From: Candidatus Methylomirabilota bacterium
Lineage (GTDB): Bacteria > Methylomirabilota > Methylomirabilia > Methylomirabilales > Methylomirabilaceae
Direction of reading: 5' to 3'
NCBI GenBank assembly: GCA_003104975.1
Contig: PQAM01000004.1
Coordinates: 124,001 to 188,000 of the forward strand
DNA length: 64,000 bases
The stretch's first letter is position 1. Every line of letters starts with the position of its first letter. The translations under genes were made by a program, and so were the position numbers. Below, in pieces: positions 699-1,035 of this stretch. A model generated the notes under the pieces. The model was not told the origin of the DNA. It worked only from the letters and a program-made list of their open reading frames with translations, and did not search any database.

Positions 699-722
699 TA
701 CTGTATTCAATCAGGTACAGTA
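699..722. promoter_or_regulatory. Perfect inverted repeat, candidate enhancer site for a sigma-54 activator
   Basis: The arms TACTGTA and TACAGTA are exact reverse complements separated by 10 bases. The site lies 128 bases upstream of the -24 element of the sigma-54 promoter at 850-866, which is a normal distance for an upstream activating sequence. It starts 39 bases after the stop of the Fis-type activator gene. Binding by that protein is inferred from position only. Confidence 0.45.
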
Positions 723-849
723 TCGTCGAGCATGCGTTGAGGACGTCCAGTTACAGCATCTCATCAAACCCTGATTTATCGTTGAGAAATTAATGAGTTT
801 TCGCCTACCCCTTCCTGCGGCAAGGGGGTGTGGCTATCGGATCATCGTC

Positions 850-866
850 TGGCACGTCTATTGCTT
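850..866 (+). promoter_or_regulatory. Sigma-54 (-24/-12) promoter
   Basis: TGGCACG, four bases, then TTGCTT matches the sigma-54 consensus TGGCACG-N4-TTGCW at every defined position, with correct GG-N10-GC spacing. Transcription would start near base 876. A 9-bp inverted repeat with a 5-base loop (873-895) spans the predicted start. Downstream there is no normal gene for more than 500 bases, so the transcript may be a small RNA or a very short message ending at the hairpin at 996-1035. Confidence 0.6.
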
Positions 867-875
867 GATATTACG

Positions 876-1035
876 GCCATACGCAATATGGCCGTTGGCG
901 CCGACCACTACGATCGTTTGGCGAAGGGATGCAACCCGAGAGGATCGTTTAGCTGGCGGCCATGTTTTAAAGCCACATCGCGTCCAAGGGGCTAAAGAGG
1001 AGAGCCCTCCGCTACCCCCCGGAGGGTTCTCCTCT
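876..1035 (+). ncRNA. Candidate sigma-54-dependent small RNA or very short message
   Basis: The boundaries are set by the predicted start of the sigma-54 promoter (about 876) and the end of the strong hairpin at 996-1035. Inside lies a 35-codon frame (ATG at 888, TAA at 993-995) that ends exactly where the hairpin begins. It has no visible ribosome binding site and a leader of only about 12 bases. Its product would be basic, with two cysteines and no resemblance I recognise. NrsZ of Pseudomonas is a known precedent for a sigma-54-driven small RNA downstream of an NtrC-family gene. Whether this one is made, and whether the peptide is translated, cannot be told from sequence. A longer frame at 793-1107 overlaps it and does not look like a protein. 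Confidence 0.35.
996..1035 (+). terminator. Strong 16-bp hairpin without a T tract
   Basis: Bases 996-1011 pair with 1020-1035 with a single mismatch or G-U pair and an 8-base loop rich in C. No run of T follows, so it may act as an RNA-stabilising 3' hairpin, or be a repeat, rather than a classical intrinsic terminator. Confidence 0.4.

Follow-up and report, generated by a model that had tools for sequence, protein, structure and literature searches.

The window analysed here, a stretch of 64,000 nucleotides (G000:C4:124001-188000), comes from a 3.0 Mb genome whose genus was taken, by inference, to be Candidatus Methylomirabilis, in which methane oxidation is coupled to nitrite reduction. 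Near its beginning, the end of a response regulator gene is followed by an enhancer-like dyad, a sigma-54 promoter and a predicted small RNA with two hairpins:

1 to 660, + strand: 3' portion of a sigma-54-dependent response regulator gene (PF00072, PF00158 and PF02954 on the full gene, G000)
699 to 722, no strand assigned: enhancer-like dyad TACTGTATTCAATCAGGTACAGTA, with the conserved core GTATTCAATCAGGTAC inside it
850 to 865, + strand: sigma-54 promoter TGGCACGTCTATTGCT, with transcription predicted from about 876
876 to 1046 (predicted extent), + strand: predicted small RNA (z = -4.97; covariance model match)
889 to 965, + strand: helix 1, a long hairpin (helix and tip together hold 13 pairs changed on both sides)
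977 to 989, + strand: linker between the hairpins, consensus ACGUCGCGUCCAA, conserved and mostly unpaired (alignment A1, columns 93-105)
988 to 1035, + strand: helix 2 hairpin with a near-invariant C-rich loop, CUACCCCC (7 pairs with two-sided change)

The genus set used for comparison comprised 15 genomes, nine of them of good quality, and 13 loci bearing the RNA, that of the window genome (G000) and those of 12 relatives, were fetched and compared. Searches of a large open library, which does not extend to subscription papers, gave only incidental mentions of small or noncoding RNA in Methylomirabilis, and the structured small RNA of this genus is previously undescribed.

The regulator gene starts 5' of the window and ends at 660, directly upstream of the dyad, where the first-pass annotation had placed a Fis-type sigma-54 activator gene. 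Its domains are ordered receiver (REC), AAA+ and Fis-type helix-turn-helix (HTH_8), and the protein carries the motifs GAFTGA and LLDLQMP and the receiver aspartate. RpoN was found in 14 of the 15 genomes, the remaining one being 81% complete, and GAFTGA is the motif by which the regulator could contact it. The score with the NtrC model TIGR01818 was 453 bits, under the cut-off of 558.6, which rules out an identification as NtrC. The regulator was likewise under the cut-offs of the LuxO model (375 bits, cut-off 800) and the GlrR model (383 bits, cut-off 763) and under the curated AtoC and ZraR cut-offs, and a search of the genome contigs with its sequence gave distant homologues only. It is presumed to be the activator of the RNA promoter.

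The usual gene order in the genus begins with a methyltransferase, a YbjQ-like protein, an outer-membrane protein (PF13557) and a binding protein (PF04392), and continues in most genomes with the HAMP histidine kinase, the CheY-like receiver and the response regulator of this two-component signalling operon, after which comes the RNA. The histidine kinase of several species (among them G008 and G014) has about 150-160 additional residues between HAMP and HisKA that are absent from the window genome and from M. oxyfera.

The inverted repeat and the consensus-perfect sigma-54 promoter of the first-pass annotation were both found in place. The repeat, TACTGTA-N10-TACAGTA at 699-722, is the sole copy in the window at up to three mismatches (shuffle mean 0.20), but the part that is conserved is an inner dyad, GTATT-N6-GGTAC at about 704-719, which shares its centre with the longer repeat; the outer TAC arms were specific to the window genome and were not kept among the 13 genomes. 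In all 13 genomes the core, as GTAYN-N6-GGTAC, was located 126-131 bases 5' of the promoter. The promoter reads TGGCACG-TCTA-TTGCT in the window genome (850-865); its consensus, TGGCAYG-N4-TTGC, was present in all 13, and TGGCA, the next G and TTGC were invariant. Mean column identity in the same alignment was 0.86 for the enhancer core and 0.93 for the promoter, while that of the intervening spacer was 0.63. Perfect TGGCACGNNNNTTGCW sites numbered three in the 3.0 Mb window genome, compared with none in the control, and the other two were located 5' of flagellar flgF/flgG-type genes and of a receiver-domain gene. The layout required of a sigma-54-dependent small RNA, a -24/-12 promoter with an enhancer about 80-200 bases upstream, was therefore seen in every one of the 13 genomes, and at the level of sequence comparison the promoter and the enhancer are established. 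The C of the -12 GC falls at 864, so that transcription is predicted to start near 876.

Two other blocks lie close to the enhancer. A conserved GTAYC..TTTGATYCT block immediately 5' of the core may be a second activator site. Most relatives also carry, upstream of the position equivalent to 699, an A+T-rich AAATAAATCAATAAG block that may be an IHF-like bend site.

The model structure was derived from the single-sequence fold of G011 together with the consensus of hairpin 2. In alignment A1 (13 sequences), 21 of the 51 pairs showed two-sided compensatory change, compared with at most 10 in slid controls, and none of 500 shuffles reached any of five covariation measures. Compensatory change beyond chance, which marks a structured non-coding RNA, is therefore present; because the shuffles preserve relatedness, the slid control and the types of compensatory change carry more weight. 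Helix 2 was paired in 95.4% of cells even though its stem sequence varies. Since the structure was taken from the fold of one sequence, the percentage paired is biased towards G011, while the covariation depends less on that choice. Most sequences gave a similar shape when folded singly, G012 being the worst. M. oxyfera (G006, so taken) and G003 have lost the inner part of helix 1 but keep a short GGUCG..CGACC hairpin.

Hairpin 2 of the window genome is GAGGAGAGCCCUCC-GCUACCCCCC-GGAGGGUUCUCCUC (988-1035). Its loop is CUACCCCC in 11 of the 13 sequences, with UUACCCCC and AUUCCCCC occurring once each, and the 3' end of the loop is CCCCC in all of them. The first-pass annotation had taken this hairpin for the end of the transcript and had looked to relatives for its conservation. 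The hairpin is indeed conserved, as part of a structure that covaries in 13 genomes, but it has no U-tract and was not called as an intrinsic terminator. The excess of G-U over A-C cells in the alignment (88 versus 22) supports the + strand; folding energies did not separate the strands (z = -4.97 for the + strand, 200 shuffles, versus -4.76 for the other). Structure and strand are thus established by comparison, as properties of a predicted molecule.

A DNA search showed that the region 941-1099 is conserved in 12 genus genomes beyond the window's own. The covariance model R1 matched the window genome at G000:C4:124889-125043 (E = 4.7e-28) and found a single copy per genome in 13 of the 15 genus genomes, including all nine of good quality; the same 13 have enhancer, promoter and hairpin. 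In M. oxyfera the locus is at G006:C1:2229965-2230111. The two genomes lacking the RNA, G001 (8% contaminated) and G010 (83% complete), also lack a regulator orthologue. Among 80 further genomes of the phylum the model gave nothing convincing under stricter filters that weak relatives may escape, the best match outside the genus being a single weak one (E = 0.052). Rfam 15 yielded no family match, only chance animal-microRNA matches under their gathering scores. With enhancer, promoter and covarying structure kept in 13 genomes, the proposal of a small RNA adjoining its sigma-54 activator gains support.

One genome retains the RNA although most of the operon is gone. In G005 (G005:C29:19000-33000) the outer-membrane protein, binding protein, kinase and receiver are missing, the regulator is a 3' remnant, and ruvC/yebC-type genes are now located upstream of the RNA. 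Genes of this type are found beside the operon in G011 too, evidence against misassembly. Still present in G005 are the enhancer, 129 bases from a perfect promoter, and hairpin 2, with all its pairs and its loop. Persistence of the RNA without an adjoining activator indicates that the activator is dispensable or replaceable by another protein, and another enhancer-binding protein may drive the RNA in this genome; either the RNA is useful without the adjoining operon or the loss is recent. G005 is therefore a natural experiment on activator cross-talk.

We consider it probable that the locus encodes a trans-acting structured small RNA, controlled by sigma-54 and a two-component system, that pairs with mRNAs through its C-rich loop independently of Hfq. 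The outer-membrane protein and the periplasmic binding protein would signal to the HAMP histidine kinase with its CheY-like receiver, and the kinase would phosphorylate the response regulator. The phosphorylated regulator would bind GTAYN-N6-GGTAC about 130 bases 5' of the sigma-54 promoter and activate transcription from near 876. The product would consist of a long 5' hairpin, an unpaired conserved linker and a 3' hairpin exposing the C-rich loop, and this loop, perhaps together with the linker, would pair with G-rich mRNA leaders and alter their translation without Hfq. In this scheme we infer the transcription, the activation by the neighbour and the base-pairing action. If it holds, the locus provides a well-defined regulatory RNA whose input, two-component control through sigma-54, is already in place.

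That the C-rich loop hardly varies while its stem does suggests that it pairs with G-rich leaders. Such pairing of a hairpin loop with G-repeats is known for RepG of Helicobacter pylori, a C-rich-loop RNA that acts on G-rich leaders and adjoins a response regulator gene (PMC8295292). The Methylomirabilis RNA is similar in its possible loop pairing and in its adjacent response regulator gene; it differs in that its loop lies outside any U-tailed terminator and that target searches found no conserved G-repeat target. G-rich mRNA leaders are most likely the targets, bound by base-pairing through the loop.

The searches themselves gave the following results. With one mismatch allowed, the loop complement CCGGGGGGTAGCGG recurrently matched the MPGGSG codons of ffh, a coincidence of coding that was rejected, and its further matches were other coding sites. 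Matches to the linker complement TTGGACGCGAC were scattered, with no common gene. The motif GGGGGTAG preceded ATG 150 times, versus 150 for a reversed-pattern control, and gene starts with this motif were common to three species at most, none being widely shared. The near-invariant loop makes the target search directly testable.

That the RNA acts instead by binding protein, as a sponge or mimic with the conserved loop and linker as protein sites, is unlikely, and of the alternatives it fares best. The large stable helices, the conserved loop and linker and the failure of the complementarity searches to give a target are all in its favor. RNAs of this kind include CrcZ, which acts on Hfq/Crc, and RsmY/Z, which act on RsmA. 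However, a search for Hfq (PF17209) in the 15 genus genomes gave no match, whereas the control search was positive in five reference genomes; the AANAANAA motifs, of the A-rich CA type of CrcZ, CrcY and CrcX, were absent from the 13 sequences, and no repeated protein-binding motif like those of known sponge RNAs was seen. With no gene found in the genus for Hfq, the usual RNA chaperone, RNA regulation there would rely on other helpers or none.

Several known systems share the arrangement. Qrr with LuxO in Vibrio and GlmY with GlrR in enterobacteria are sigma-54-dependent small RNAs with NtrC-type regulators, and the chain of substrate-binding protein, kinase and regulator recalls the layout of LuxPQ-LuxO. 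The present regulator, in contrast, is under the LuxO and GlrR cut-offs, the RNA has no sequence relation to Qrr or GlmY, and Qrr depends on Hfq, which was not found in Methylomirabilis. NrsZ of Pseudomonas aeruginosa lies directly 3' of ntrC and has a sigma-54 promoter under two-component activation (PMC9308961). The parallel to NrsZ drawn earlier stands for the arrangement, a small RNA with a sigma-54 promoter after an NtrC-type regulator gene, but goes no further: the regulator is under the NtrC cut-off, the NrsZ motif ACAGGCAG was absent from all 13 sequences, and the RNAs are related neither in sequence nor through Rfam. CrcZ of Pseudomonas and Azotobacter is a separate unit just 3' of cbrB, a sigma-54 response regulator gene, with conserved synteny (PMC8871633). 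The Methylomirabilis RNA would likewise be a unit of its own downstream of such a gene, but CrcZ sequesters Hfq/Crc, and here no Hfq was found. The RNA thus resembles NrsZ and CrcZ in arrangement and control, not in descent, and is a member of neither family. Small RNAs placed directly after the gene of their regulator would then also arise beyond the Proteobacteria, in cells whose genomes yielded no Hfq.

The coding potential of the locus bears on the remaining explanations. A frame containing WSLVAxxAI encodes a hydrophobic peptide of 45-49 codons in G011, G002 and G005, where it has an ATG or GTG start and a Shine-Dalgarno-like sequence, overlaps helix 1 and ends before helix 2. In G004, G007, G008, G009, G012 and G013 it has a stop, a frameshift or an early end, and G000, G003 and G006 have lost it, while the RNA pairs are kept in both groups. 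The short membrane-type frame in three relatives makes a dual-function RNA possible, and the frame is possibly an ancestral small protein. It is nonetheless doubtful that the RNA is an Hfq-independent dual-function RNA, under sigma-54 and two-component control, with an ancestor that coded for a small membrane protein as well, and of which most species, including the operon-less one, keep the RNA function alone. A dual-function RNA as such, or an mRNA whose small protein was lost in most species, is very unlikely, since the frame with its start and Shine-Dalgarno-like sequence is confined to three genomes and is broken or lost in the nine others named, while the RNA pairs persist.

Less probable still is that the structure forms a long 5' leader for genes further downstream and not a separate small RNA. 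Several genomes have same-strand genes downstream, but the next gene varies by species (TetR-type, a cysteine-pair protein, a kinase or unrelated genes) and is usually hundreds of bases distant. The 35-codon frame at 891-995, open between promoter and hairpin in the window genome, is almost certainly not the product. The first-pass annotation had named its conservation in relatives as a check, and in 12 relatives the same frame runs to 21-148 codons and shares neither start nor stop. The preferred reading therefore remains that of the small RNA pairing through its loop.

Downstream of the RNA, the window encodes at 1456-1724 a small protein with CC and CxxCGF motifs (IEY..NxYPxxIxxP) that matches no family in Pfam or NCBIfam. 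G000:C19 carries a paralogue, preceded by a receiver-domain gene and then a further perfect sigma-54 site.
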